Position numbers and translations under genes: made by a program
Shown: in pieces, positions 11,606 to 39,062 of the stretch
Layout: every line of letters starts with the position of its first letter
Position numbering within the stretch: position 1 is the first letter of the stretch
DNA from: Chelativorans alearensis
GTDB lineage: Bacteria > Pseudomonadota > Alphaproteobacteria > Rhizobiales > Rhizobiaceae
Length of the DNA: 64,000 bases
Assembly (NCBI RefSeq): GCF_010993735.1
Contig: NZ_WQNI01000010.1
Coordinates: forward strand, 124,001 to 188,000
Direction: 5' to 3'
The notes under the pieces: model-generated
Told to the model about the DNA's origin: nothing
Seen by the model: only the letters and a program-made list of their open reading frames with translations
Databases searched by the model: none

Positions 11606-12850
11606 TTATGTGGTGACAGGATCGCTTGGGTGCATCCTGAATACGTTTTCGATGCATATCCTTCTTAAAATGTTCAAAAAGAGCGATTGCGTTGCGGTCG
11701 GTGACCAGCCGCGCCTCGTTGTGATGCCGATGGGGCGGTCGGAGCCATCGAGCGTGAAGTCCAATGTCGTCAACACGCCTTCTTCCAGTTCCCTTGCGAT
11801 CTGGTGCCGGGAAATGATGGTGAGGCGGTCACCACCCAGCAGTAGTCCCCGGATTAATATCAGGGAGCTCGATTCCACGATCCTGCCCGGCGCCGGAACT
11901 TTCGCGTTCTGGAACAGCGCATCGAAATGTTGACGGGTCGGGATGTTCGACGACGGTGTCACCCAAGGGAATTGCGCGAGCATATCCACGCGGAGGCGCC
12001 TCCTGCCCGCAAGCGGATGACCGGCCCGTGCCGCTATGGCCAGCTTGTCGACAAACAATTCCTCCTGTACGACGTCGTCCACCGGAGGGGGATCCCGCAA
12101 CGCGCCGATGAGAACGTCCATCTCCCCATAGCGGAGCGCGTGCAACAAATCTTTATAGGCGCCATCACGTACCTTGATCCGGACTTCCGGACGCAACGCG
12201 CACAGATCGTTGATCGCCTTGGGAAGAATGAAGCTGCGCGCCAGGGGAAGCGTGCCGAGGACGATCCGTGCGGTGTCGTGCCCCAGCAGCATGGAGACTT
12301 CCTCCAGGCCCTGTTTGAGTTCGGCGAACGCCAGCAATACGCCCTGGCGCAGGGCGTCACCGGCGTGAGTAGGCTCGAAACCCTGGACAGACCTGGTAAA
12401 GAGCTGAAGTCCGGATATGCGCTCCATGTCGTTGATGGCTCTGTGCACTGAGGGGCGGGACACACCAAGGTTCCTGGCCGCCCAGGAGTAGTTTCCGGTT
12501 TCGCAAAGCGCCAGAAAACACCGGAGTTGAACCGTCGTCAGCAGATGATCGAAGTTCGCAAAGCCTGCCGATTTCAAGCGCCCGCCGCAACGCGCCGCGC
12601 GACGCGCGGAACGTGCCAGGATAAACAGCGCCCGATCCACCCGGGCACGCAGCAATTCACCCGCCTCAGTCGGGAACATGCCGGTGCTCTTCCGCAGAAA
12701 CAGCGGTGTGCCGACCGCTTCTTCAAGCTTGGCCAGAGCCTGGGTTATCGCTGGCTGCGAAAGAAAGACCTTCCCCGAGGCGGCCGAAATACTGCCGGTA
12801 GCGGCGACTTGGGCAAAGGCACGCAGGTGACGGAGATTCAAACGGGTCAC
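11606..12850 (-). CDS. LysR-type regulator with two N-terminal HTH domains
   Basis: 414 residues, about 110 longer than a normal LysR. The first winged HTH is residues 1-62 (LRHLRAFAQVAATGSISAAS...LSQPAITQAL, split here). A second, divergent one follows at about 105-170 (LRCFLALCETGNYSWAA, then GVSRPSVHRAINDME). The effector-binding domain occupies about 190-400. The start is GTG 12850 with a purine-rich AAGGAAGGGA upstream. Transcribed divergently from galB, which it probably controls with a ring-cleavage or 4-oxalomesaconate metabolite as effector (inference). A second protein with the same architecture is encoded at 54628-55896. Confidence 0.93.
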   Translation of the reverse strand: MTRLNLRHLRAFAQVAATGSISAASGKVFLSQPAITQALAKLEEAVGTPLFLRKSTGMFPTEAGELLRARVDRALFILARSARRAARCGGRLKSAGFANFDHLLTTVQLRCFLALCETGNYSWAARNLGVSRPSVHRAINDMERISGLQLFTRSVQGFEPTHAGDALRQGVLLAFAELKQGLEEVSMLLGHDTARIVLGTLPLARSFILPKAINDLCALRPEVRIKVRDGAYKDLLHALRYGEMDVLIGALRDPPPVDDVVQEELFVDKLAIAARAGHPLAGRRRLRVDMLAQFPWVTPSSNIPTRQHFDALFQNAKVPAPGRIVESSSLILIRGLLLGGDRLTIISRHQIARELEEGVLTTLDFTLDGSDRPIGITTRRGWSPTATQSLFLNILRRICIENVFRMHPSDPVTT

Positions 12851-26197: not shown

Positions 26198-27484
26198 TCA
26201 GAGGCGATCGAGCAGCGCTGCGATATCGAGCAGGTACATTTGCCGGGAGCCTTCATGCACCGAATCGATGCAGACGGCTCGGATGTCCCGGCTCCAGCGC
26301 GGGTGCAGGTCGCAGCGGTTGTGCTTGCCCAGATCCGCGGGGGTGTAGAAGGTACCCAGATCGTAGCGCACCTCCTTCTCGCAGTCGAAAAGGAACAGCG
26401 TGCGTTCGTGGGTCCTGGCGTCGGGATATGTGTCGGACAGCATCCAACGCCCGTTTCGGCCATAAGTCATGTGCCCGTTTTCCGTGAGGATGCCGTTTCC
26501 CACAACGTGCACGTCGCCCGTCCGGTCGTTGTAGAGCAGGTAGTGTATCTCTCCTTCATGCGGCCCCCAGACGATGACTTCGTCGTCGGATTTCCAGAGG
26601 GGATGGGAAATCTGCCATTCGGATTTCTCGTAGTCGAAGGTGCCGTGGGCACTCGGGTCGAAATCCTTCTCGAGCTGGGGCAGGGGATGGTCCGCATCTT
26701 CCAAAAGACGCAGGCCGGTGCCGTCGCCATTGATGGTGAACAGCCGATGCAGGTAGCAGAACTCGTCGTCCGGCCGCTCCGTCCAGCGATGGATGAACAG
26801 GAAGCGGGTGCCGGAGGGATTCACCTCCATATGGGTGATCCAGTGCATCGCCTTGTCCATGGAAGGCACATGGTCGAATTCGAAGAGGCGGCGCAGGGAA
26901 CAGATGAGTTCCGTTTTGCCGGTTTCAATGTCCATGCGCCAGATGCCGTCATCGTCGGGAGCGAGCGGCAATTCGGGTTCGGCGTGCGTGGCCGGATAGC
27001 CGATGGTGCGGTGCGTCTTGATGAAACGCGAATAGTTGATCGTCAGGGCAAAGCGACCATCGGGCGCCATGACGTAGATGGGTGCGGGAAGTTCGCGACC
27101 TTCGCCTGTTGCGGGATCCACCACCCGGGAACGGAAGTCGGGATAGATGTTGTCCGGTCCCGGCGCTGTCGTTGCGCGGGTATTGTAGATGACCTGGTCC
27201 GTATCGCCCAGCCACTGCAATTGACAGCCCATCTGCCAGTTCCAGGCGGTGGTTTCGCCAAGCTTGTGCCAGCGGTCGCCGTCGGTGAGATCGAAGAAGC
27301 CGACCTCCGCCACTTCACGGCCTGTCAGGTCGCCGGTGAAAAGCGGCGTGCGGTTGGCCAGAAGCCGGGCGTCGCCGGGACCGAAATTGGTCTTGTTGTA
27401 GTAGCCGAAAAAGCTGTGGGGGTTGCCGTCGCCCACGCGGCGGATCGGCACCTCGTTGGACACGTCGATGATCTTGTCGGTCAT
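26198..27484 (-). CDS. Beta-propeller protein (TolB/oligogalacturonate-lyase-like), unknown function
   Basis: A 428-residue protein without a signal peptide. It shows repeated blades such as YVMAPDGRFALTINY, MEVNPSGTRFLFIH and YGRNGRWMLSDTY, and ends HPRWSRDIRAVCIDSVHEG, a pattern of TolB-like/WD40-like propellers and of cytosolic oligogalacturonate lyase. Many His, Asp and Trp residues line the repeats. It could be a lyase or hydrolase, but I cannot assign a reaction. Encoded 29 bp after the aminotransferase in the same operon. Region 25954-26197 upstream of the binding protein is relatively AT-rich near 26090-26140 and probably holds its promoter. Confidence 0.85.
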   Translation of the reverse strand: MTDKIIDVSNEVPIRRVGDGNPHSFFGYYNKTNFGPGDARLLANRTPLFTGDLTGREVAEVGFFDLTDGDRWHKLGETTAWNWQMGCQLQWLGDTDQVIYNTRATTAPGPDNIYPDFRSRVVDPATGEGRELPAPIYVMAPDGRFALTINYSRFIKTHRTIGYPATHAEPELPLAPDDDGIWRMDIETGKTELICSLRRLFEFDHVPSMDKAMHWITHMEVNPSGTRFLFIHRWTERPDDEFCYLHRLFTINGDGTGLRLLEDADHPLPQLEKDFDPSAHGTFDYEKSEWQISHPLWKSDDEVIVWGPHEGEIHYLLYNDRTGDVHVVGNGILTENGHMTYGRNGRWMLSDTYPDARTHERTLFLFDCEKEVRYDLGTFYTPADLGKHNRCDLHPRWSRDIRAVCIDSVHEGSRQMYLLDIAALLDRL

Positions 27485-27513: not shown

Positions 27514-28704
27514 TCAGGCGAGAGCGGCGAGGAAGTCGTGCATCCGCGTCATGGCGGTTTCGATGATGTCTTCCGAGGTAGCGAAGGACATGCGGAAGAA
27601 GCCCGGTTGCAAGAAAGCCGCACCGGGAATCGCCGCGATTTCCGCATGTTCAAGCAGCGCTTCGCAGAAGCTGACATCGTCGGTGACGGTCATGCCGCCG
27701 ATGGACTTGCCGTAGGTGGCCCGAATGTCCGCGAATATGTAGAAGGCACCTTGCGGCGGGATATAGCGCAGGTAGGGCATCCGGCCGAGCCGCGCTGTGA
27801 TCAGATTCTTTCGCCTCTGATACTGCGCAGTCATGGCATCGATCTGCTCCTGCCCGTTCCGCAATCCGCCAAGTGCGGCCCATTGCGCAATGGAACCCGG
27901 GCCGGAGGTATTGTGCCCTTGGAGCATTGTCATCCGCTTGATGAGTTCCACAGGTCCAAGGGCGAAGCCGATGCGCCAGCCGGTCATGGCAAGGCTTTTC
28001 GATGCGCCGTTGATGTGCAGCATCCGGTCCCGCGCCGCGGGGCAGAGATTCAGTGGATTGCGGTATGTGAGCCCGTCGAACACGATCCGTTCATAGATTT
28101 CGTCATTGATGATCGTCAGGTCGTGTTCGATCGCGAGCTCGCAAAGACCAATCACGAGGTCGTCACTATAAATGCGGCCGGAAGGATTGTTTGGTGCGTT
28201 GAGCATGATCATCCGCGTGCGGTCGGTGATCGCCGCGCGGATGTCGTCAAGCGAGAAGTCGAGCGTCTGTGGGTCGGTTTCGATGATCACCGGTTTGGCG
28301 TCGCAAAAGCGAACCTGCTCGACATAGCTCACAAAGGCCGGGGCGATTATGATCGCCTCGTCACCGGGGTTGAGCAGCGCGGCGCAGGCTTCGAAGAGCA
28401 AGGGCTTGCCCCCTGCGCCGATCATCACCTCCCGCGCCTCGTAATCCAGGTCGAACCGGGTTTTGTAATAGTGCGCAACCGCCTCCCGCAGTTCCAGCAG
28501 GCCTGCGGCGGGAGTATAGAAGGTGTGGCCCGCGTCCAGCGCCTGGCGGGCGGCTTCCATCACTGCGGATGGCGAAACGAAGTCAGGCTCGCCGGTGGAA
28601 AGCGAAATGATGTTGCGGCCCTGCCGTCGCAGGTCAGCGGCTTTCTCGGAAACCACACGGGTGGCGGCAGGCTGCAGGCGGGTCAGCCGGTCTGAAATTC
28701 GCAC
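27514..28704 (-). CDS. PLP-dependent class I aminotransferase
   Basis: 396 residues of the aspartate aminotransferase Ib-like group. The PLP lysine lies in GASKSLAMTGWRIGF; LNAPNNPSGRIYS carries the cofactor-contact Asn and INDEIYERIVF the Asp/Tyr. The C-terminal arginine for the alpha-carboxylate is in FFRMSFATS. Start is GTG 28704 with AGGAGAGGAC upstream. The preceding SDR ends 25 bp away and the propeller gene follows, so it probably acts in the same catabolic unit, converting an amino acid into a 2-oxo acid. Exact substrate unknown. Confidence 0.93.
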   Translation of the reverse strand: MRISDRLTRLQPAATRVVSEKAADLRRQGRNIISLSTGEPDFVSPSAVMEAARQALDAGHTFYTPAAGLLELREAVAHYYKTRFDLDYEAREVMIGAGGKPLLFEACAALLNPGDEAIIIAPAFVSYVEQVRFCDAKPVIIETDPQTLDFSLDDIRAAITDRTRMIMLNAPNNPSGRIYSDDLVIGLCELAIEHDLTIINDEIYERIVFDGLTYRNPLNLCPAARDRMLHINGASKSLAMTGWRIGFALGPVELIKRMTMLQGHNTSGPGSIAQWAALGGLRNGQEQIDAMTAQYQRRKNLITARLGRMPYLRYIPPQGAFYIFADIRATYGKSIGGMTVTDDVSFCEALLEHAEIAAIPGAAFLQPGFFRMSFATSEDIIETAMTRMHDFLAALA

Positions 28705-28729: not shown

Positions 28730-29470
28730 TCACGTGGCCTGACCGCCGTTGACGCCGATCATTTGGCCGTTGACGAACCGGCTGGCGGGTGAAGCGAGGA
28801 AGGTGACTGCCGCGGCCACGTCTTCCGGAGTGCCCATGAATCCCACGGGAATCGGGGCCAGCTTCTTCGGGTCCGTCCCGTCCCGCCCCTCGGTCAGGGT
28901 CTGGCCCGGGGAAACCGCGTTGGCAGTGATGCCGTGCGGCCCGAACTCCGTGGCGAGCGCCTTGGTCAGACCCCAGATCCCGTGCTTTGCCGCAGAGATC
29001 GGCGCACCTTCGAAGTAGCCCTTGATCGCCTTCATTCCGGTCATGCTGATGATCCGGCCCCAGCCCTTGTCCACCATGCCGGGCAGGAAGGCCTGCGTGG
29101 TCCGGAAGGCGGCGGTAAGGCTTGTGTCGACGACGGAATGCCAATCGCTCTCGTCCATTTCCAGGAACGGCTTGTGCGGCCGGATGGCTGCATTGTTCAC
29201 GAGGATGTCGATCGTGCCGAACCGGTCGAGCGCTGCTTTCGACATGGCCGCGATATCCTCCGCTCGGCCCATGTCGCCCATGACGATCAGGCTTTCGGTG
29301 CCCTGTGCGTGAACCAGTCCGGCAGTATCGTCACAGGCTTGGCGGTTGCTCGTGCCGTTGATCACCACATTGGCCCCGAGGCCTGCAAGCTGCACGGCGA
29401 CGGCGCGCCCGATGTTTCTTCCCGATCCGGAGATGAAGGCGGTTTTGCCAGCGAGCGGTCTGTCGGTCAT
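28730..29470 (-). CDS. SDR-family protein lacking the catalytic tyrosine
   Basis: A 246-residue SDR with SGSGRNIGRAVAVQL for cofactor binding and NNAAIRPHKPF in the middle. At the active site the usual Tyr-x-x-x-Lys reads Ile158-Ser-Ala-Ala-Lys162 (codon ATC for the Tyr position); Tyr152 is six residues earlier. It may therefore be non-canonical or not an oxidoreductase. ATG 29470 follows AGGACGTGGC; the frame stays open to 29536. First gene of the minus-strand run with the aminotransferase and propeller, divergent from GntR at 29689, with a putative operator between. Confidence 0.9.
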   Translation of the reverse strand: MTDRPLAGKTAFISGSGRNIGRAVAVQLAGLGANVVINGTSNRQACDDTAGLVHAQGTESLIVMGDMGRAEDIAAMSKAALDRFGTIDILVNNAAIRPHKPFLEMDESDWHSVVDTSLTAAFRTTQAFLPGMVDKGWGRIISMTGMKAIKGYFEGAPISAAKHGIWGLTKALATEFGPHGITANAVSPGQTLTEGRDGTDPKKLAPIPVGFMGTPEDVAAAVTFLASPASRFVNGQMIGVNGGQAT

Positions 29471-29630
29471 GCCACGTCCTATTCTGTTGTTTCTGGCCAG
29501 CCACGTTCCGCACGCGCAGCCGTGGCGCGCGCACACGCCGCCCTCACGCCGCGCAATCCGGCGCGGTGACTGCAGATATCCGGGACGTGAAAGGTCCTCC
29601 TAGCCCTGGAAGATGGAGTGGAGCGGAAGG

Positions 29631-29660
29631 ATTGTCAACAGAGTGAAAACTGTTGACAAT
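29631..29660. promoter_or_regulatory. Putative GntR operator: ATTGTCAACAG-N8-CTGTTGACAAT
   Basis: An exact 11-bp inverted repeat with an 8-bp spacer in the divergent SDR/GntR promoter. Each arm contains TTGACA on the outward-reading strand (29653-29658 plus, 29638-29633 minus), so the site would cover the -35 boxes of both promoters. Weak -10 candidates lie 17 bp further (plus 29676-29681; minus 29615-29610, CATCTT). The core TGTCAACAG/CTGTTGACA recurs at 35372-35399. Confidence 0.7.
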
Positions 29661-29688
29661 TTGAAAACGAGGCGTTCTTTTAGCGGGC

Positions 29689-30363
29689 ATGGAAATCTCG
29701 AACGACACCCAGGCCTTGGTTTCTGCACGCCGCGAGAGGTCGCTGACCACCATTGTGCGTGACAGGCTCGAACAGATGATCCTCCAGGGCGAACTGGGGG
29801 CGGGCACGCGCCTCAACGAGCAGGCGCTGTCAAAGGTGCTTGGCGTCAGTCGCGGTCCAATCCGCGAGGCCGCGCGTCTGCTGGAGCGCGAGGGACTCGT
29901 CGCTTCGGTTGCCAACCAGGGCGCCTTCGTGCGGCAGCTTTCGATCGAGGAGGCGCTCGAGCTTTACGACCTGCGCGCGGCCATTGCGGGCTATGCGTGT
30001 GCCCAGCTCGCCGAACGGGCGAGCGCTGTGGAAAAGCGTGAGATGCGCGAGATGGTGGAAGAGATGGACCGCTGCATCACCGCAGAGGAGGAGGCTCGTT
30101 ACTTCGAACTCAATCTCGTCTTTCACGACCGCATCGCGGAACTGTCGGGGGGCAAGCGCACCCTGGAGCTGTATACCTCATTGGGAAAGGAAGTGCGGCT
30201 CCTGCGGCGGCGGGTATTGCGAGGAACGGAGTCGATGCGCTTCTCGAACGAGGAGCACAAGCAGATCGTCGGAGCGATCCAAGACGGCGATGCGGCGGCT
30301 GCCCGTAAGGCGGCCGAACAGCACCACATAAATGGGAAACGGCGCTGGCTCGATACGCTCTAG
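29689..30363 (+). CDS. GntR-family transcriptional regulator (FCD type)
   Basis: A 224-residue FCD-type GntR. HTH recognition region VSRGPIREAARLLEREG, then the helical FCD domain with FELNLVFHDRIAEL, FSNEEHKQIV and AEQHHINGK as probable metal/acid-binding histidine segments. It begins 28 bp after the operator-like palindrome and precedes TTT set 3, so it probably represses both its own transporter operon and the divergent SDR operon. Its recognition helix is identical (SRGPIREA) to that of the GntR at 34631. Confidence 0.93.
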   Translation: MEISNDTQALVSARRERSLTTIVRDRLEQMILQGELGAGTRLNEQALSKVLGVSRGPIREAARLLEREGLVASVANQGAFVRQLSIEEALELYDLRAAIAGYACAQLAERASAVEKREMREMVEEMDRCITAEEEARYFELNLVFHDRIAELSGGKRTLELYTSLGKEVRLLRRRVLRGTESMRFSNEEHKQIVGAIQDGDAAAARKAAEQHHINGKRRWLDTL

Positions 30364-30452
30364 GCCTGTTGTCGAACCATCGTGCGCCCGGTTTCAGCCG
30401 GGTGGACGAATTGGAAGGCGGGGAGAGGACCGCGCACAAATGGGAGGAAAGC

Positions 30453-31439
30453 ATGAAAGTTATCAGCACGCTTGTTGGAACGGGCCTGCGTGGGACCGGA
30501 TTGGCCGCCGGTTGCGTTCTCGGTCTCATCGCCGGCAGTCAGGCGCTGGCGCAGGATTATCCTAGCAAGGATCTCGATTGGACGATCGCTTTCGGGCCGG
30601 GCGGCGGAAACGATATTATGGCCCGCACCCTGATCGATATCATCCAGAAATACGACCTGTATGGGCAGGATATCAGGGCGGAGAACCGGGCCGGCGGCAG
30701 CGGCGCGGTCGGCTGGGGCTATGTATATTCCAAGGCCGGCAGTGGGTACGATATTACCACCACCTCGGGCAGTCTCATAACCACGCCGCTGCAGGCCGAC
30801 ACCCCGTGGAAGGCTTCCGATTTTGTACCGCTGGCATTGCTGGCGACCGATGATCTCGCCATCATGGTGAGCGGCAATTCCGAATGGGACACCATTGAGG
30901 AGTTTATCGAATCCGCAAAGGAGAAGCCGCCGACACTGGCCGGCACTGGCACCGTGAACGTGGACTTCATCGTGCCTACGCTTTTCGCGGAAAAGGCTGG
31001 TTTCGAGTTCGAATACGTGTCGTTCAACTCGATGGCCGACATGCAGACCGCGCTGCTGTCGGGAGCCGTCGACGCCATGGTCGGCAATCCGGGTGAAATC
31101 GTCGGTCTCGTGGAGTCCGGAGACATGAAGGCGTTGATCTACAGCGGCGAGACTACCCCGCCGGCGCTCGGCGATGTCCCAACCATGGATGAGAAGGGCT
31201 GGGGCGTCGGGGTGTCCATGCCGCGCGGCCTGATCCTGGCACCCGACGCGCCGCAGGAGGCCGTCGACTTCTGGCGCGCTACGGTCGAGAAGATCGTGGA
31301 GACCCCGGAATGGGATAAGTACATCGAAACGAATCTCCTGACCGAGAACATCAAGTACGGCGATGACTTCGCGACCTTCCTGAAGAATGCACAGGACGGG
31401 TTCGAAAAGGTGTTGCGCGCGCAGGGCGCGATCAAGTGA
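30453..31439 (+). CDS. TTT solute-binding protein, set 3
   Basis: 328 residues. Signal peptide ending QALAQ (about residue 33), then DYPSKDLDWTIAFGPGGGND, the family opening block with the PGGGND ligand loop. ATG 30453 has GGGAGGAAAGC upstream; the open frame begins earlier at 30369 without support. A strong hairpin lies between this gene and tctB. Probably binds a carboxylate handled by the Ldh2-family dehydrogenase, PrpD-like and LigJ enzymes downstream. Confidence 0.94.
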   Translation: MKVISTLVGTGLRGTGLAAGCVLGLIAGSQALAQDYPSKDLDWTIAFGPGGGNDIMARTLIDIIQKYDLYGQDIRAENRAGGSGAVGWGYVYSKAGSGYDITTTSGSLITTPLQADTPWKASDFVPLALLATDDLAIMVSGNSEWDTIEEFIESAKEKPPTLAGTGTVNVDFIVPTLFAEKAGFEFEYVSFNSMADMQTALLSGAVDAMVGNPGEIVGLVESGDMKALIYSGETTPPALGDVPTMDEKGWGVGVSMPRGLILAPDAPQEAVDFWRATVEKIVETPEWDKYIETNLLTENIKYGDDFATFLKNAQDGFEKVLRAQGAIK

Positions 31440-31458
31440 AGCAGACCTGACAGGGCGC

Positions 31459-31479
31459 GCCGGCCGGGGTTCGGCCGGC
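31459..31479 (+). other. Intercistronic hairpin between binding protein and tctB (set 3)
   Basis: GCCGGCCG (31459-31466) and CGGCCGGC (31472-31479) pair perfectly around a 5-nt loop, 20 bp after the binding-protein stop. No U-run follows, so it is more likely an mRNA-stabilising or partial-attenuation element that keeps the binding protein in excess over the permeases than a full terminator. Confidence 0.6.
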
Positions 31480-31502
31480 AGCCCGGCCCCGTGGAGCCTG
31501 AC

Positions 31503-31955
31503 ATGCGTATGATTTTCTTTGTCGTGATCCTCGCTACGGGGCTCATGTATTCCTACCTGGCTTTCACAGATCTGGACTTTCTGACGACGACCGGACGGCT
31601 GGGGCCAGGATTCTTTCCTCGGGTCATTGGAACCTTGATGGTGGTCTTCACCATCTGGAGCATGATCGCCGAATTGCGGCCGAGTGCCGCCGAGGGGCGC
31701 TCCGACGTCGGCGGCTACGCCGGCCAGGTGGCGCTGATCATGAGCTTGGGCGTGGCCTACGTTCTGTCGCTGGGCTTGGTCGGCGGCATTCCTGCCACGG
31801 TGATCTTCCTCTTTGTCACCCTGTCGGTGCTGAACCGGGACCGCCTTCTACAGAATGGGCTGGTCGCGTTGCTGGTGCCCGGCGCGATCTATGTGCTCTT
31901 CGACAGGTTGCTGAACGCAGCGATACCCGAGGGCGTACTGCCGCTTCCCTTCTGA
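31503..31955 (+). CDS. tctB: TTT small permease subunit TctB, set 3
   Basis: 150 residues, four hydrophobic helices, with RLGPGFFPRVIG near residue 38 as in TctB/DUF1468. ATG 31503 has GTGGAG at a good distance. It lies 63 bp after the binding protein and 48 bp before tctA. Confidence 0.92.
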   Translation: MRMIFFVVILATGLMYSYLAFTDLDFLTTTGRLGPGFFPRVIGTLMVVFTIWSMIAELRPSAAEGRSDVGGYAGQVALIMSLGVAYVLSLGLVGGIPATVIFLFVTLSVLNRDRLLQNGLVALLVPGAIYVLFDRLLNAAIPEGVLPLPF

Positions 31956-32003
31956 AACGCTCCGCGCGCCGGTGCATAACCCGATATACTGGAGCCTTCC
32001 TTC

Positions 32004-33551
32004 ATGGACGTTTTCGCTGACCTCTGGATGGGATTGTCCGTTGCGATCAGCCCCATCAATCTGGTGTATCTGCTGATCGGTGCGATGGTGGGCATGATCG
32101 TCGGGGTCATTCCCGGCTTTGGCCCCTCGGCGGGACTGGCCATCCTCCTGCCCGTCACCTTCGGGATGGACCCGATCGGCGCCGTGATGATGCTCGCCGC
32201 GATCTACTACGGGGCGATGTATGGCGGGACGATCACGTCGATCCTGTTGAATACACCGGGCGAATCCGCGACTGTCGCCAGTACGTTCGACGGCTATCCG
32301 CTGGCCCAGAAGGGGCGGGCGGGTCCCGCGCTGGTGATGCAGGCGGTGGCCTCGTTCACCGGGGGCACCGTGGGCGTCATCCTGATTACCGTCCTGGCCC
32401 CGGCCTTTTCTCACGTCGCCCGCAATTTCGGCCCGCCGGAATATTTCCTGCTGGCGCTTCTGGGGATGCTGACCCTGATCGTGATGATCGGGGAGAATTG
32501 GAAGCTCGGCGTGCTCTCCGCCCTCATCGGTTTCGCGCTAGGCACCGTCGGCGTGGACCTCGAAACGGGTCAGAGCCGCTACACATTCGGTTCCGCGGAA
32601 CTGATCGGTGGGATTCACTTCATTCCGATCGCCATTGGCCTCTTCGGTCTGGGCGAGCTCTACTTTGCCTTCTATCAGGGCCTTCATCGCATCGGTTCCG
32701 GCTCCATTGCGCAATACGACCGGAAAAAGGGCTTCTGGCCAGATATGGCCGACTGGGTAGACACGAAGTTTACGCTGGTGCGCGGGTCGATCCTTGGCTT
32801 CGTGGTGGGCGTGATCCCCGGCGCGGGGGCAACCATCGCCTCGCTCATGGCCTATTCCTTCGAGCGCTCCTTCTCCAAGCGTCCGAAAAACTTCGGCAAG
32901 GGCGAGATGGCGGGCCTGGTGGCGCCGGAAGCCGCGAACAACGCCGCTTCCTCCGGTGCGATGATCCCGCTTTTGACGTTGGGAATTCCCGGCTCGGCCT
33001 CCACCGCGGTTCTCCTGGCGGCCTTTCTTCTTTGGGGGATGCGTCCGGGGCCGCTCTTCATGACGCAGAATCCGGAATTCGCCTGGGGTCTGATCGCCTC
33101 GATGTATCTCGGCAACATGGCACTCCTGGCGCTCAATATCTTCGCAATCCCGCTCTTCGTGCAGATCATCCGCGTACCATACCGGATCCTCGCGCCCATC
33201 GTGTTGGTCATCTGCACGCTCGGGACGTTCAGTGTCTCCAGCTCGATGATCGAGGTCTACCTGATGTTCACCGCCGGGATCGTCGGCTTCTTCATGCGGC
33301 TTTATGGCTTCTCTCCCGCCGCGCTGGTTCTGGGGCTGGTTCTGGGGCCGCTTGCTGAGGAGGCGCTGCGCCAGACGCTGACCATATCGCGCGGATCCTT
33401 CTGGATCTTCCTTGAACGCAATGGGTCGATCGGAATCATCGTGACCACTGCGGTCCTGCTTCTCGTCCTGCCACTCATGCAACGCATTGGACGCAGAGCA
33501 GGCGCCTTGAAGCAGGCTACTGTCAGTGAGGTTGAAGATGCCGGGGTCTGA
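32004..33551 (+). CDS. tctA: TTT large permease subunit TctA, set 3
   Basis: 515 residues with GVIPGFGPSAGLAILLP in the first half, GVIPGAGATIASLMAYSFE in the second, and PEAANNAASSGAMIPLLTLG, all canonical TctA elements. Its last codons overlap the start of the Ldh2-family dehydrogenase gene by 14 bp, coupling transport with an enzyme. Confidence 0.95.
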   Translation: MDVFADLWMGLSVAISPINLVYLLIGAMVGMIVGVIPGFGPSAGLAILLPVTFGMDPIGAVMMLAAIYYGAMYGGTITSILLNTPGESATVASTFDGYPLAQKGRAGPALVMQAVASFTGGTVGVILITVLAPAFSHVARNFGPPEYFLLALLGMLTLIVMIGENWKLGVLSALIGFALGTVGVDLETGQSRYTFGSAELIGGIHFIPIAIGLFGLGELYFAFYQGLHRIGSGSIAQYDRKKGFWPDMADWVDTKFTLVRGSILGFVVGVIPGAGATIASLMAYSFERSFSKRPKNFGKGEMAGLVAPEAANNAASSGAMIPLLTLGIPGSASTAVLLAAFLLWGMRPGPLFMTQNPEFAWGLIASMYLGNMALLALNIFAIPLFVQIIRVPYRILAPIVLVICTLGTFSVSSSMIEVYLMFTAGIVGFFMRLYGFSPAALVLGLVLGPLAEEALRQTLTISRGSFWIFLERNGSIGIIVTTAVLLLVLPLMQRIGRRAGALKQATVSEVEDAGV

Positions 33552-34599
33552 GGCACGGATCGCTCAAGGTGCGCTGGAGGGCTTGGCCGCCCGCGCCTTC
33601 TTCGCTCTCGGCGTGCCCGAAGCGGAGGCGGGGCAGGCGGCCGAGGTCCTCGTGCTGGCGGAGATGATGGGGATCTCCACACACGGTATCGCCCGCGCCG
33701 CCACCTATGGGAAGCGGCTCGCATCCGGCGGGATCGATGCCGGGGCCCGGATCGAAAGCACGCGGATCGCTCCGGCGCTTGTCCAACTGGACGGTGGCAA
33801 CGGCCTGGGACCGGCGGTTGGAGCGCGAGCACTCTCCACCGCAATGGAATCGGCGTGGGAGACTGGGGTAGGCGTGACGCTTTGCAGGGGGGCCAATCAT
33901 TTCGGTGCTGTAGCGCCATATTGCTGGCAGGCCTGCGAGGCGGGCTTTGCTGCGATGGTCATGTCAAATACGACACCGCTGATCGCGCCTACCGGCGGGC
34001 GGACTCCCGCCGTGGGGAACAATCCGATCGGCTTCGGCTTTCCGGGGCCTGAGGGGCGGCACGTCATCGTCGATATGGCAATCTCGGTCGCTGCCCGCTC
34101 CCATATTCGCCGTGCTGCGGAAGCAGGAGAGCCGATACCGGATGGCTGGGCCACGGATTCCGAGGGCCAGCCGACGCGGGATGCGGCGGCGGCGATGCGC
34201 GGGATGCTCATGGGGATCGGAGGGCACAAGGGCTACGGTCTTGCGCTCGCTGTCGACATGCTGGCTGGGGTTCTGTCCGGGGCGGCTTTTCTTACGGACG
34301 TAGCCGATCTGTCTCGTGAGCCGGGGGCCTCACAAAACCTTGGGCACGCCTTTATCCTGATCGACGTATCGCGCTTGCTAAATGCGGCGGAGCTTGCCGA
34401 GCGGATGGACCGGGCGAGGGCTATGCTTACCTCTATAATGCCCGTCGATCCGGACAGTCCCGTGCGTCTTCCCGGCGACCGGGCATTGGCGCGGATGCGT
34501 CGAGCGCAAACCGAGGGCATCGCGGTGCCAGGTCGGGTTCTTGACGACTTGCGAGCGCTCGCAAATGGCAAGGAGGAGGTGCCGAGACCGCTGGATTGA
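33538..34599 (+). CDS. Ldh2/malate-lactate dehydrogenase family NAD(P)-dependent oxidoreductase
   Basis: 353 residues of the family that includes malate, sulfolactate, ureidoglycolate and piperideine-2-carboxylate dehydrogenases. STHGIARAATYGKRL carries the conserved His; CRGANHFGAVAPYCWQA and NNPIGFGFPG form the NAD(P) and substrate sites; GIGGHKGYGLALAVDML closes the fold. ATG 33538 is preceded by GTGAGG; a GTG at 33526 is in frame. It overlaps tctA-3, so it probably oxidises or reduces the imported 2-hydroxy/2-oxo acid. Confidence 0.92.
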   Translation: MPGSEARIAQGALEGLAARAFFALGVPEAEAGQAAEVLVLAEMMGISTHGIARAATYGKRLASGGIDAGARIESTRIAPALVQLDGGNGLGPAVGARALSTAMESAWETGVGVTLCRGANHFGAVAPYCWQACEAGFAAMVMSNTTPLIAPTGGRTPAVGNNPIGFGFPGPEGRHVIVDMAISVAARSHIRRAAEAGEPIPDGWATDSEGQPTRDAAAAMRGMLMGIGGHKGYGLALAVDMLAGVLSGAAFLTDVADLSREPGASQNLGHAFILIDVSRLLNAAELAERMDRARAMLTSIMPVDPDSPVRLPGDRALARMRRAQTEGIAVPGRVLDDLRALANGKEEVPRPLD

Positions 34600-34612
34600 C
34601 CTTCTCGGAAGT

Positions 34613-34626
34613 CCGGTTAAAACCGG
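34613..34626. repeat. Inverted repeat before the GntR start at 34631
   Basis: CCGGTT-AA-AACCGG is a perfect 14-bp dyad ending 4 bp before the start codon and covering the ribosome-binding region. It might be an operator or sequester translation initiation; only the symmetry is seen. Confidence 0.35.
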
Positions 34627-34630
34627 TGCG

Positions 34631-35314
34631 ATGAGGCAGCCCAATGATCCTTACGCTGGACTATCCAGCGACACGATACGCCCGATCCAGACCCTGAGCC
34701 GGATTGCTTTGGAGGCGATCGAGCGCCTCATTGCCGATGGATCGCTTAAATCCGGTGATCGGGTCAACGAAAGTCAGCTCGCGGAGATCCTCGGCATCAG
34801 CCGAGGCCCCATCCGAGAAGCCGTTCACAGTCTGGAACAGATGGGGCTTCTTGTCAGCGTCACCAACAAGGGCATGTTCGTCCGGGCGCTCAGCCTGGAA
34901 GAGGCGCAGCACCTGTATGAACTCCGCTCGGCCCTCGCTGGGCTGGCCGGTCGGCTGATCGCCGTCCGTGGGACCGAGGAGGATATCTCTGCCCTTGTCG
35001 CTCTCGTCGACGAGATGGATGTCGCGGTGTCGAAGGACGACGCCGAAACCTACTTCCGGCTGAACCTTGATTTTCACGAAAAGCTGATCGGCGCGGCCGG
35101 TAATCCAGCTCTTCAGGCAACCTACCAGCGTATTGTGAAACAGCTTTTGCTGATGCGGCGCCGTGGACTGGTGCAGGCCCACAACATCCGTATTTCGAAT
35201 GAAGAGCATCGCGTGATCGTCAATGCACTGCGCGCCCGCAACGCCGATGCAGCCGAAACGGCCATGCGCGTCCACGTGGAGAACGGTTTCAAGCGGATTG
35301 CCGACGCAGGCTGA
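34631..35314 (+). CDS. GntR-family transcriptional regulator (FCD type)
   Basis: 227 residues. HTH segment GISRGPIREAVHSLEQMG, FCD domain with YFRLNLDFHEKLIG, ISNEEHRVIV and AMRVHVENG. Similar to the GntR at 29689 and sharing the same recognition core SRGPIREA. ATG 34631 begins MRQPNDPYAG; the frame is open back to 34541 inside the Ldh2 gene. Located 31 bp after Ldh2 and 58 bp before the 28-bp palindrome at 35372, which probably is a target for it or for its paralogue. Confidence 0.92.
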   Translation: MRQPNDPYAGLSSDTIRPIQTLSRIALEAIERLIADGSLKSGDRVNESQLAEILGISRGPIREAVHSLEQMGLLVSVTNKGMFVRALSLEEAQHLYELRSALAGLAGRLIAVRGTEEDISALVALVDEMDVAVSKDDAETYFRLNLDFHEKLIGAAGNPALQATYQRIVKQLLLMRRRGLVQAHNIRISNEEHRVIVNALRARNADAAETAMRVHVENGFKRIADAG

Positions 35315-35371
35315 TTGCTGCAAGGCGCTGCCGTGGAAGGCGTTGTGATTTACCTGTACGGACCAGTTTGT

Positions 35372-35399
35372 AACTGTCAACAGTTAACTGTTGACAGTT
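35372..35399. promoter_or_regulatory. Putative GntR operator: perfect 28-bp palindrome
   Basis: AACTGTCAACAGTT is followed directly by its exact reverse complement. The right arm includes a consensus TTGACA (35391-35396); 17 bp downstream CATTGT (35414-35419) is a weak -10 candidate. It lies 120 bp upstream of the AbrB-type gene, giving a promoter in which an occupied palindrome would block the -35 box. Core shared with 29631-29660. Confidence 0.72.
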
Positions 35400-35519: not shown

Positions 35520-36593
35520 ATGATTGCCGCCTTGCGCGACAAGCCGGGGACGCACGGTTTCGCCGTCATCCTGGTGCCAGCTGCAATCGGCGGAGCGATC
35601 TGGTCCGCATCGGGTTTGCCTCTGGGTTGGCTGATGGGGGCCGCGCTCGTCACCGGGGCCTATGCGATGACCGGCCGCCCGGTCGCTGTTCCGAAACTGC
35701 CGCATCGTGCAGGGCTGGTCATGATCGGCTCGGGTGTCGGGCTGGTCCTGACGCCGGAAATCGCAGCCCGCATGACGATGTGGGCGCCAATGATGTTGCT
35801 GGCCGCAGGGCTGGGCATTGCGATGGCTGCGCTCTGCGCGCCGCTGCTGGCTCGGGCGGGCCGGGTAAGCGTTGCCACGGCCTATTTCTCTTTGCTGCCT
35901 GGCGGCATCATTGAAATGGCGCGTGTGGGGGAAGACTTTGGCGCCGACCGCACGACCATCGCCGCACTGCATACGGTGCGCGTGGGGCTGGTGGTGGGAT
36001 TGCTGCCGCTGATGCTACTCGGTTTCCTGCCCCATGACGACCAGGCGGCCATTGCTGGAACGCCGACCGCCGGCGCGCTGCAGATGGCTGGGGCGTTGGC
36101 TGTCGGAGCCCTCGGCGGCTGGGTCAGCTCGAAAATCGGTCTGCCTGCAGCCTGGCTTTTGGGGGCTGTAGTTGCCGTCGGCGCGGTCGCCGCAACCGGA
36201 GCCATCGGCGGGCAGCTACACCCGGTGCTGGTCATACTGGCACAGATCATCGTTGGGTTGACGCTTGGTGCGCGCTTCGAGCGCCGGCGGCTGGCTTCGA
36301 TTCCGCGAGCGATGGCGGCCGGACTGGCCACACTGGCGCTCATCATGGTCGCGATGGCGGCCTTTGCAGCGCTGGCAGGACTTCTGATGCCGCAAGATCT
36401 GCCTTCATTGATCCTTGCCTTTTCCATCGGCGGCATGGCCGAAATGGTGCTGACCGCCAAGGTGCTGCACCAGGATATTGCCCTCGTTGCCGCTTTTCAG
36501 ACGGTGCGCGGGGTGACCGTCAACGCGGTGGCCGGGGCAGTCTGGCAACGGCTCGACCGCAAGTTTTTCAAGACCGACATGAGAGGAGAGTGA
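35520..36593 (+). CDS. AbrB-family membrane protein (COG3180), possible transporter
   Basis: A 357-residue polytopic membrane protein with about 10 helices and an internal duplication: GLPLGWLMGAALVTG and SLLPGGIIEMARVG in the first half are echoed by GLPAAWLLGAVVAVG and FSIGGMAEMVLTAKV in the second. This matches the AbrB-type (once called ammonia monooxygenase-like) membrane family, some members of which are associated with organic acid operons. Start ATG 35520 has GGAGC upstream; a TTG at 35496 is an alternative. Ends 4 bp before the PrpD-like gene. A second family member is at 40034. Confidence 0.85.
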   Translation: MIAALRDKPGTHGFAVILVPAAIGGAIWSASGLPLGWLMGAALVTGAYAMTGRPVAVPKLPHRAGLVMIGSGVGLVLTPEIAARMTMWAPMMLLAAGLGIAMAALCAPLLARAGRVSVATAYFSLLPGGIIEMARVGEDFGADRTTIAALHTVRVGLVVGLLPLMLLGFLPHDDQAAIAGTPTAGALQMAGALAVGALGGWVSSKIGLPAAWLLGAVVAVGAVAATGAIGGQLHPVLVILAQIIVGLTLGARFERRRLASIPRAMAAGLATLALIMVAMAAFAALAGLLMPQDLPSLILAFSIGGMAEMVLTAKVLHQDIALVAAFQTVRGVTVNAVAGAVWQRLDRKFFKTDMRGE

Positions 36594-36597
36594 ACCG

Positions 36598-38052
36598 GTG
36601 TCTGCCCAGAACAACGTCTATGCTGAAATGCCGGGGAATACGCACATCACGGAGGATGCCGCCCGCTTCATTGAAACGGTAACTTTCCACGACATTCCCG
36701 AGGAAGCGATCCGCATCGGCAAGCGCTGCATGATCGATGCCTTCGGGCTCTACGTCGCCGGGTCGGAAGAACAGTCGGTCCGGATACTTGCCGACGAGGC
36801 GCGGGAATTCGGCGGGCGCGAGGATGCCCGACTTCTCGGCGACGCGCGAAGGGTTCCCGCGCCCATGGCCGCACGGGTTCTCGGAACCGCGGGCCACGCC
36901 CATGACTGGGACGACAGCCAGGTGAGCCACGATCCCGCTCACATCTATGGGCTTTTGACCCATCCTACGATCCCGCCGCTTACAGCAGCGCTGGTCATGG
37001 CGCAGAAGATGAAGCCCGTTTCGGGCCGCGACTTCATGCTGGCCTTCCTCACTGGGTTCGAGGTCGAGTGCAAGATATCCGAATGGATGCTGCCGAGACA
37101 CTACATGCAGGGAATGCATTCCAGCGGCACCGTGGGCCATTTTGGCGCCTACGCGGCGGCGGCCAAGCTGTTGGGGCTGACTGGGGATAAGCTGCGCGCT
37201 GGCCTGGGGATCGCGGCGAGTTTCGCCGCCGGCATCCGCTGCAACTTCGGCACCATGACGAAACCGCTTCACGTCGGCCGCGCGGCCGAAAATGGTGTGA
37301 CCGCCGCGCTGCTGGCGGCGCGAGGCTACACCGCGGATCCGGAGGCGCTCGATGGTCCATGGGGTTTCATGGCCGTGCAGGGCGGCGGCGTCAGCCCCAA
37401 GAAGCTCTCGCAGGGCTTCGGCAAGACTTGGACCATCGTGGAGCCGGGCGTATCGATCAAACCCTATCCCTGTGGCGTGCTGACCCATCCGACAATCGAC
37501 CTGATGCTGCGGCTGGTGACGGAGGCCGACCTCGCCCCTGAGGATATCGAAGCCGTGATCGTCCATGCCGGGACCAACATCCTGAAGCCCATCCGCTACC
37601 CCATCGCGAAAAACCACCTGCAAGCCAAATTCTCGCTTCCCGCCGCGCTCGCGATGATCGCCCTGGAGCGGAAAGCGGGAAAACGCGAGTTCTCCGATGC
37701 ATTCGTCGGCAGCGCGGCGATGCAGGACATGCAGCGCCGCATCTCCACCGAGTTCGATCCGGAAATCGAGGCCAAGGGTTTCGACAAGATGCGCTCGCGC
37801 ATCACGGTCCGCATGAAATCGGGCGGCGAGGTAGCAGGCTGGGCCGACGAGCGTTACCGTGGCGGACCGGAGAACCCGCTAACAGACGAGGAAGTCGAGG
37901 CCAAGCTGCGCTCCTGCTGCGAAGGCGTGCTTGACGAGATGGGTCAGGACAAGCTGATCGCGCGGACCTGGGCCGTGCTCGACATGGACGACGCCGGCGC
38001 GATCGCCGACCTGCTCCAAGCCTGGTCAACCAGCCCCGGGGAGAGAGCATGA
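36598..38052 (+). CDS. MmgE/PrpD family protein
   Basis: 484 residues of the family containing 2-methylcitrate dehydratase and cis-aconitate decarboxylase. AARFIETVTFHDIPEEAI and DAFGLYVAGSEE form the N-terminal helices; GHAHDWDDSQ, GFEVECKISEWM and FGTMTKPLHVGRAAENG are conserved active-site blocks; the C-terminal KPYPCGVLTHPTID follows. GTG 36598 has GAGAGGAGAG upstream. Stop overlaps ligJ (ATGA). It probably dehydrates or isomerises a branched tricarboxylate related to the LigJ product. Confidence 0.92.
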   Translation: MSAQNNVYAEMPGNTHITEDAARFIETVTFHDIPEEAIRIGKRCMIDAFGLYVAGSEEQSVRILADEAREFGGREDARLLGDARRVPAPMAARVLGTAGHAHDWDDSQVSHDPAHIYGLLTHPTIPPLTAALVMAQKMKPVSGRDFMLAFLTGFEVECKISEWMLPRHYMQGMHSSGTVGHFGAYAAAAKLLGLTGDKLRAGLGIAASFAAGIRCNFGTMTKPLHVGRAAENGVTAALLAARGYTADPEALDGPWGFMAVQGGGVSPKKLSQGFGKTWTIVEPGVSIKPYPCGVLTHPTIDLMLRLVTEADLAPEDIEAVIVHAGTNILKPIRYPIAKNHLQAKFSLPAALAMIALERKAGKREFSDAFVGSAAMQDMQRRISTEFDPEIEAKGFDKMRSRITVRMKSGGEVAGWADERYRGGPENPLTDEEVEAKLRSCCEGVLDEMGQDKLIARTWAVLDMDDAGAIADLLQAWSTSPGERA

Positions 38053-39062
38053 TTATCGATTGTCATGGACACTACACCACCGCGCCAGGCCAGCTTGTCG
38101 CCTGGCGCAACGCTCAGATCGATGCGAAAGGGGACCGGTCGCGCATGGCTGAGCCCGATGGACCGGTGATCTCCGACGACGAGATACGCGAAAGCCTGCT
38201 CCGGGCGCAAATCCGCACCCAGCGGGAAAGGAGCATCGACCTCACGCTCTTTTCTCCACGCGCGGCGGCCATGGGGCAGCACATCGGCGATGAAGCTATG
38301 TCGCAGCAGTGGAGCCGGATCTGCAACGACCTGATCCGACGGGTCTGCGACCTCTTTCCGGATCATTTCGCGCCGGTCTGCCAACTGCCCCAGTCGCCCG
38401 GCTGCAAGCCGGAAGGCGTCGTGCCGGAACTGCTTCGCTGCGTGGAGGAGATGGAGTTCGTCGGGTGCAATCTGAACCCTGACCCCGCAGGCGGCTATTG
38501 GACCGACCCGCCGATGACCGACCCGTGGTGGTTCCCACTTTACGAAGTGCTGGAGGATCTCGACGTGCCCGCCATGATCCACGTCAGCGGGTCCTGCAAC
38601 CCGAATTTCCAGTATAGCGGCGCGCACTACATCAACGCCGACACCTCGGTTTTCATGCAGATCCTCGACAGCGATCTGTTCGATCGCTTTCCTCGGCTGA
38701 AGTTCATCATCCCGCACGGTGGTGGGGCGGTGCCTTTCCACTGGGGGCGCTACCGCGGCCTCGCGATGGACCGCGGCCGCAAGGAGCCGGCTCAGATGAT
38801 GGGGCAGAACATGTTCTTCGATACGTGCGTCTACCACCAGCCGGGCATCGACCTGATGACCGAGATCGTGCCGGTGGAAAACGTGCTCTTCGCTTCTGAA
38901 ACATATGGGGCCGTGCGGGCGGTCGATCCGGAAACCGGCCACCAGTTCGATGACACGAAACGCTATATCGAGGCGAGCCCGCACCTTACCGATGCGGACC
39001 GCGCGAAGATCTTCGAAGGCAACGCCCGGCGGGTCTTCACCCGGCTGAAACTGCCTGCCTGA
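38049..39062 (+). CDS. ligJ: 4-oxalomesaconate hydratase, amidohydrolase type (LigJ)
   Basis: A 337-residue amidohydrolase starting MIIDCHGHYTTAPGQL (His6, His8 metal ligands). NLNPDPAGGYWTDPP, IIPHGGGAVPFHWGR (His near residue 223) and FFDTCVYHQPGIDLM match Sphingobium LigJ block by block as I recall that sequence. LigJ adds water to 4-carboxy-2-hydroxymuconate/4-oxalomesaconate, the same step as GalB at 12981 but with an unrelated fold. Translationally coupled to the PrpD-like gene; its stop faces the next gene with only 3 bp between. Confidence 0.92.
   Translation: MIIDCHGHYTTAPGQLVAWRNAQIDAKGDRSRMAEPDGPVISDDEIRESLLRAQIRTQRERSIDLTLFSPRAAAMGQHIGDEAMSQQWSRICNDLIRRVCDLFPDHFAPVCQLPQSPGCKPEGVVPELLRCVEEMEFVGCNLNPDPAGGYWTDPPMTDPWWFPLYEVLEDLDVPAMIHVSGSCNPNFQYSGAHYINADTSVFMQILDSDLFDRFPRLKFIIPHGGGAVPFHWGRYRGLAMDRGRKEPAQMMGQNMFFDTCVYHQPGIDLMTEIVPVENVLFASETYGAVRAVDPETGHQFDDTKRYIEASPHLTDADRAKIFEGNARRVFTRLKLPA

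Follow-up and report, generated by a model that had tools for sequence, protein, structure and literature searches.

Two palindromes in a Chelativorans alearensis transporter and PrpD gene cluster are predicted pairs of inverted GntR operators

We analysed a 64,000-nucleotide stretch of Chelativorans alearensis DNA (contig NZ_WQNI01000010.1; hereafter the window, in which coordinates are given), where two palindromes flank a segment encoding two GntR regulators, GntR1 and GntR2. The palindromes very probably represent pairs of inverted FadR-subfamily GntR operators that GntR1 and/or GntR2 dimers would bind, likely repressing the local gene cluster. A local regulon controlled by one or both proteins, as put forward in the original prediction, is the best-supported reading, because the sites occur nowhere else in the genome and adjoin the only two regulators it has with an SRGP[IV]REA helix, because such sites are found again elsewhere next to related regulators and target genes of these kinds, and because the operator core covaries with the recognition helix.

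Site 1 (29631-29660) reads ATTGTCAACAG-AGTGAAAA-CTGTTGACAAT, with exact 11-bp arms and an 8-bp spacer, and site 2 (35372-35399), AACTGTCAACAGTTAACTGTTGACAGTT, is a perfect palindrome over 28 bp with a shared core; both had been described in these terms before and proved exact in the sequence. No other spacer-free palindrome in the window is as long as site 2 (the runner-up has 16 bp), and base composition predicts 4.8e-4 palindromes of 28 bp per 64 kb and 0.043 genome-wide. TTGACA is present in each arm and reads outward. A single arm, such as AACTGTCAACAGTT, is nearly its own reverse complement, the sole asymmetry being the central CA/TG, and the operator unit in each arm is the near-palindromic AAYTGTCAACARTT of ~14 bp. 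Each palindrome is thus best read as two inverted operators rather than as one unit, with centre-to-centre distances of 18 bp at site 1 and 14 bp at site 2 and a CA/TG core in all four copies:

Operator 1L, 29630..29643, minus strand: core TTGTCAACAG at 29632-29641, TTGACA directed to the short-chain dehydrogenase/reductase (SDR) operon
Operator 1R, 29648..29661, plus strand: core CTGTTGACAA at 29650-29659, TTGACA directed to gntR1
Operator 2L, 35372..35385, minus strand: core CTGTCAACAG at 35374-35383
Operator 2R, 35386..35399, plus strand: core CTGTTGACAG at 35388-35397, TTGACA (35391-35396) directed to abrB

The form typical of FadR-subfamily operators, (T/C)TGT-N2-ACA(A/G) near the regulator gene, is found in these four copies and likewise beside related regulators, and the GntR and FCD domains (PF00392, PF07729) score above cut-off in both GntR1 and GntR2.

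The motif is rare in its own genome. All four copies of TGTCAACAG in the window lie at the two sites (shuffles gave a mean of 0.33, and 0 of 100 reached four), and the 5.70-Mb genome has 15 copies over both strands. The two sites are the only places in the genome with the paired pattern (gap 3-10) or with paired octamers (gap 2-20), so that the genome search named in the original prediction found the palindrome pair confined rather than scattered. The 14-mer AWYTGTYRACARWT has three genome places with zero mismatches, all at these sites; with one mismatch allowed, it has five places in the own genome, fewer than the 13 of the mirrored control. The octamer TGTCAACA occurs at 49 genome places, above its mirrored control of 18. 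A wider regulon was rejected after these 49 places and their flanks had been scored against AAYTGTCAACARTT: 14/14 was reached only at the two sites (three places, with operator 1L at 11), and the best places outside them scored 12. A site near gntR3 (41066) was also set aside, as it falls within the start of the coding sequence of the second abrB gene and GntR3 has an SRTP helix.

Among 394 genomes of the family, the paired pattern was found in four: the own genome, two with orthologous loci carrying both sites, and one other place, which has none of 21 window proteins nearby and an integrase-like open reading frame (ORF) by eye. At the order level, paired octamers (gap 2-20) occurred in six of 397 genomes including the own; in the four genomes beyond the own and L246 ones, the pairs had no match to the 21 window proteins within 2-3 kb. 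A contig scan of a second genome collection matched only the two orthologous loci. That the motif is a chance or repeat element unconnected with GntR is hardly credible: the unrelated pairs in G022, G768, G757, G641 and G142, none with a match to the 21 window proteins within 2-3 kb, and the presence of the mirrored control of the order-level search in four of 397 genomes are what it would predict, but uniqueness in the own genome, enrichment beside relatives and covariation with the helix all speak against it.

Two same-genus genomes, Nitratireductor luteus and Chelativorans salis, have the same cluster with both sites, and all eight TGTCAACAG copies of these orthologous loci are intact. More telling than these near loci is L246, from another family of the order, where a GntR1 relative (53% identical) precedes tctC, tctB and tctA. 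The spacer and flanks upstream of this relative have diverged, yet TGTCAACAG-N8-CTGTTGACA is preserved there, and with it the N8 spacing within the GntR1 line. At L019 and L020, on the GntR2 side, an extra TGTCGACA lies within ldh2. As a separate observation, the abrB gene after site 2 in C. salis (G007, L031:7157-7709; tblastn) is without ~165 internal residues and changes frame; operator and neighbours are intact, and the gap may reflect gene decay or an assembly problem.

Operators of this type also accompany more distant relatives. Over 28 non-orthologous homolog loci the octamer occurred 25 times, against 0.86 expected at the rate of the window's own genome, and TGTCAACA/TGTTGACA lay in the flanks of the matched regulator gene (300 bp before, 350 bp after) at 21 of them (resampled mean 0.46 loci, maximum 3 in 300 runs). 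Beside GntRs that are more distant (12 loci) it was seen once, next to an SRGPVREA protein. Other genera and families have single operator copies adjoining genes for GntR1-like or GntR2-like proteins. A PrpD gene was present within the 1.5 kb covered at 20 of the 28 loci, either following the regulator gene or diverging from it, and TTT (tripartite tricarboxylate transporter), SDR, AbrB and Ldh2 genes occur in the wider stretches. Two same-genus genomes contain a related PrpD-AbrB-SDR-TctA cluster in which two octamers precede prpD, on the stretch from which the transporter genes diverge (in one genome a TctC-like ORF, by eye); the regulator of this cluster is SRGPLREA in the one tallied. Many PrpD-linked operators of the SRGPI clade that lie downstream of the regulator (L092-L112) have a further half-site, for example TGTTGACAATTAACAG with ACA again 7 nt on, resembling the additional boxes in the available part of Suvorova et al. 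(PMC4494728); the window sites are without such a half-site.

The original prediction described shared palindromes. These exist, but the predicted operator is the ~14-bp arm, and the whole palindrome was set back as the unit because single arms recur beside relatives. One operator of 28-30 bp for a larger complex, such as a dimer of dimers, with spacing as part of the signal, seems rather unlikely. It would account for the inverted pairs at both sites and for the N8 kept beside a GntR1 relative of another family despite a diverged spacer, and NanR places three dimers on a triple repeat in the part of that study available (PMC8012715). Most site-bearing homolog loci, however, have a single decamer, site 2 has N4 and hence another helical phase, and further pairs lie 22, 30 or 63 bp apart.

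The recognition helix provides the link between these operators and the two regulators. SRGPIREA, reported earlier as identical in the two proteins, was read in both, and among the 47 FCD-type GntRs of the genome SRGP[IV]REA is found only in GntR1 and GntR2 (HTH profile), the nearest other helices being SQGPVREA, SRGQVREA and SRGDLRKA. Across 94 loci (main scan upstream only, downstream sites from separate readings), SRGP[IV]REA went with CA/TG at 27 of 27 loci, or 21 of 21 excluding the window's own and orthologous loci, and SRAP with CG at nine of nine. Only 10 of 37 SRTP loci had any TGTNNACA upstream, with AT in seven, CA in two and GT in one. Sampling was by likeness to GntR1: 60 regulators were taken among the matches listed, some listed places being left out, and the remaining first-set loci are the best of 48 matches, of which 14 were left out.

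When proteins were clustered at 60% identity, 13 of the 15 site-bearing SRxP clusters fitted the helix/core pairing, a level reached by one of 200,000 label permutations. These 15 remained from 40 clusters after 10 without an SRxP helix and 15 without a site (13 T, 1 G, 1 S) had been dropped; a site was defined as [CT]TGTNNACA[AG], at most 300 bp upstream or 320 bp downstream, a rule that omits weaker SRTP matches (CA in L142 and L147, GT in L136 and AT in L173). A second set from an order-level search had 16 loci, and 15 after the own L233 was dropped: 11 SRGP[IV], two SRGPL and two GRSSV. CA/TG was present at 10 of the 11 SRGP[IV] loci, the other being without a site. Four of these 11 proteins are 66-72% identical to a first-set protein, and the other seven have CA/TG in six cases; two of the four are also 67-69% identical to SRAP proteins with CG. 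A tree built from 46 of the 94 proteins, with a number of weak deep forks and long branches that join, puts SRAP in two distinct positions; both go with CG, and one falls within the GntR1/2 group. The shared SRGPIREA alone would be weak evidence for a regulon, and becomes strong only once this covariation is added. Separately, a same-genome FCD GntR outside the window (G000:C2:22268-22987; L152, L202) has the helix SRAPVREA and ATTTGTCGACAATC upstream as its predicted own operator, and CTTGTCGACAAAC at window positions 12046-12053 has the form of a CG-type GntR operator.

We propose, with evenly divided confidence, that helix residue 39 (the x in S-R-x-P) acts as a one-residue core switch, in which Ala would specify CG, Thr AT, and Gly followed by Ile or Val CA/TG; a homodimer would then sit on a directional operator, and inverted pairs would restore the symmetry. 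Suvorova et al. (PMC4494728), in the part available, reported that helix position 39 correlates with the central operator bases and described several groups in which GT and AC are two bases apart. The TGT-NN-ACA palindromes in an A/T-rich context next to the regulator gene and the double sites in divergent regions of that study resemble those of the window. It associates Asn, with a trend for Thr, with A/T, Gly or Ala not being named in that part, whereas the window combines an asymmetric CA/TG core with Gly at position 39 (as we number it from its Table 1); the window also shows inverted pairs of full sites instead of a site with a weak half-site. The pattern found here, as read from sequences, fits and would extend that correlation.

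Several observations weigh against the operator reading or limit it. SRGPL proteins have mixed cores (CA/TG, TT, CT, GA, CG or none), one SRGPIRDA protein has a TA core, and the non-SRxP helices SRARVRSA and SRSVVREA also go with CA/TG, so the pairing is not one-to-one. Seven of the 28 homolog loci have no flank octamer (four SRGPL, two SRAP with CG, one GRAA), and the orthologous loci, with GntRs 92-97% identical, are too close to weigh much. The spacing of operator pairs varies (14, 18, 22, 30 and 63 bp), and a fixed spacing was rejected as a general rule. As to promoters, -10 matches 16-18 nt past TTGACA were no better than in shuffles, a simple promoter scan found nothing at site 2, and at site 1 it matched only the arms themselves, TTGTCA-N17-GACAAT, on both strands.

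These promoter results bear on the consensus -35 box claimed for each palindrome. The TTGACA letters are right, but a promoter function found little support: -10 matches reach 3/6 toward SDR (three genomes) and toward abrB in the window, and 4/6 toward abrB in the two orthologs, scores that shuffles reach in 15-43%. That the motif is a promoter feature of two outward -35 boxes, with no regulator site, is very improbable. It would fit TTGACA in every arm, the symmetrical scan match at site 1, and the -10-like CATCTT toward SDR and CATTRT toward abrB, each 17 nt on and kept in three genomes (past the 2R TTGACA, CATTGT in the window and CATTAT in both orthologous loci). Against it stand the shuffles and the CG or AT cores, without TTGACA, where the neighbouring regulator is SRAP or SRTP; TTGACA belongs to the operator itself wherever the core is TG, related loci included. 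On the operator reading, occlusion of a -35 box by the bound regulator is plausible.

The genes around the two sites are as follows:

gntR1, 29689..30363, plus strand: GntR/FCD regulator (PF00392, PF07729), helix SRGPIREA
gntR2, 34631..35314, plus strand: GntR/FCD regulator (PF00392, PF07729), helix SRGPIREA, ~40% identical to GntR1
SDR dehydrogenase, 28730..29470, minus strand: first gene of the divergent run
Aminotransferase, 27514-28704: second gene of the divergent SDR run
Protein of 428 amino acids, 26198-27484: divergent SDR run, no match to Pfam at E 0.001; the proteins of the two orthologous loci are 94-95% identical to it
tctC, 30453..31439, plus strand: TTT solute-binding protein (PF03401), 89-bp gap to gntR1
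tctB, 31503..31955, plus strand: PF07331
tctA, 32004..33551, plus strand: PF01970
ldh2, 33538..34599, plus strand: Ldh_2 family (malate/L-lactate dehydrogenase; PF02615), overlaps tctA, ends 31 bp before gntR2
abrB, 35520..36593, plus strand: AbrB-family membrane protein (PF05145, TIGR03082), first gene past site 2
prpD, 36598..38052, plus strand: MmgE/PrpD family protein (PF03972, PF19305)
Amidohydrolase gene, 38049..39062, plus strand: Amidohydro_2 family protein (PF04909), earlier labelled ligJ

Site 1 lies within the 218 bp that separate the leftward SDR gene from gntR1, and site 2 within the 205 bp between gntR2 and abrB-prpD-amidohydrolase. Because the genes from gntR1 to gntR2 are close-set (successive gaps of 89, 63 and 48 bp, an overlap and 31 bp), gntR1-tctCBA-ldh2-gntR2 may be one unit; abrB and prpD are 4 bp apart, and prpD overlaps the amidohydrolase gene. 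An exact 16-bp palindrome, TTGCGAGCGCTCGCAA, is also present at 34549-34564, near the ldh2 3' end and directly before gntR2.

The operator type AAYTGTCAACARTT corresponds to a predicted GntR site of the FadR subfamily, in which two bases separate GT from AC, and GntR1 and/or GntR2 dimers would bind the four operators. From site 1, between the divergent SDR run and gntR1-tctCBA-ldh2-gntR2, both regulators would probably control themselves, and site 2 would control the abrB-prpD-amidohydrolase unit. A bound dimer would cover the promoter region and repress all three units, and release may follow from a small (tri)carboxylate or related acid that the cluster takes up or processes; binding, the sign of control and the inducer are proposed here by analogy with the family.

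That GntR1 controls site 1 alone and GntR2 site 2 alone, as separate switches with look-alike operators, is possible but doubtful. The two window GntRs are not sisters in the tree, on which GntR2 groups with L091 and L097 and not with GntR1; these GntR2 relatives have the operator downstream of the gene, like site 2 (L097 also upstream), and the GntR1 relative has an N8 pair upstream, like site 1. The two proteins also differ after the helix-2 Glu (Gln versus Ser) and in the wing (Gln versus Lys). However, the helix is the same, both sites have the same 9-bp core, and no sequence feature separates them. Functionally equivalent GntR pairs exist: Corynebacterium glutamicum, like the window, has two GntRs in one genome, and there they act on the same targets, although these are gluconate genes and ptsG and the equivalence was shown by mutants and gel shifts, as the available part of that study describes (PMC2230225).

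Turning to known regulators, the best NCBIfam model for both proteins is TIGR03338 (phnR_burk), yet their scores (194.5 and 208.3 bits) fall below its curated cut-off of 271.5 bits, and neither qualifies as its equivalog. The best solved match is PDB 7xp0 (GntR1, E 2.5e-22; GntR2, E 6.4e-25), which has the helix SRGPLREA and which we take to be PmiR (PrpR); its effector is reportedly 2-methylisocitrate, to judge from the title of a cited work. Pseudomonas aeruginosa PrpR (PA0797; PmiR) is described, in the parts of the papers available, as a GntR/FCD repressor of prp with the predicted motif ATTGTCGACAAT (PMC9765439, PMC13086498), and it binds upstream of prpR in an electrophoretic mobility shift assay (PMC9765439). 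Like the window regulators it is of GntR/FCD type with a motif upstream of its own gene, and the window cluster includes an MmgE/PrpD family gene; unlike them, it has a CG core and a different operon, all four window copies being CA/TG. Because the PrpR motif is CG while 7xp0 has SRGPLREA, Gly alone does not fix the core, a further point against a simple residue rule. Literature text searches, which motifs confined to figures or supplements would escape, returned for GntR with TTGTCAACA only a pneumococcal two-component study and for GntR with TGTTGACA only letters belonging to a primer; a search for ATTGTATACAAT found nothing.

The system belongs to a familiar type, the local regulon of a FadR-subfamily GntR, of which this instance is new. 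Two GntRs thereby gain a testable local circuit with four exact predicted binding sites and three predicted target units, and a TTT transporter is linked to an AbrB-PrpD-amidohydrolase pathway under one predicted control. For the specialist, what remains from a finding otherwise ordinary in kind is the helix/core pairing. Proteins that are 67-69% identical and differ in Ala or Gly with CG or TG allow operator choice by FCD GntRs to be tested directly, and if the residue-39 rule is true, the operators of many uncharacterised FCD GntRs would become predictable from protein sequence.

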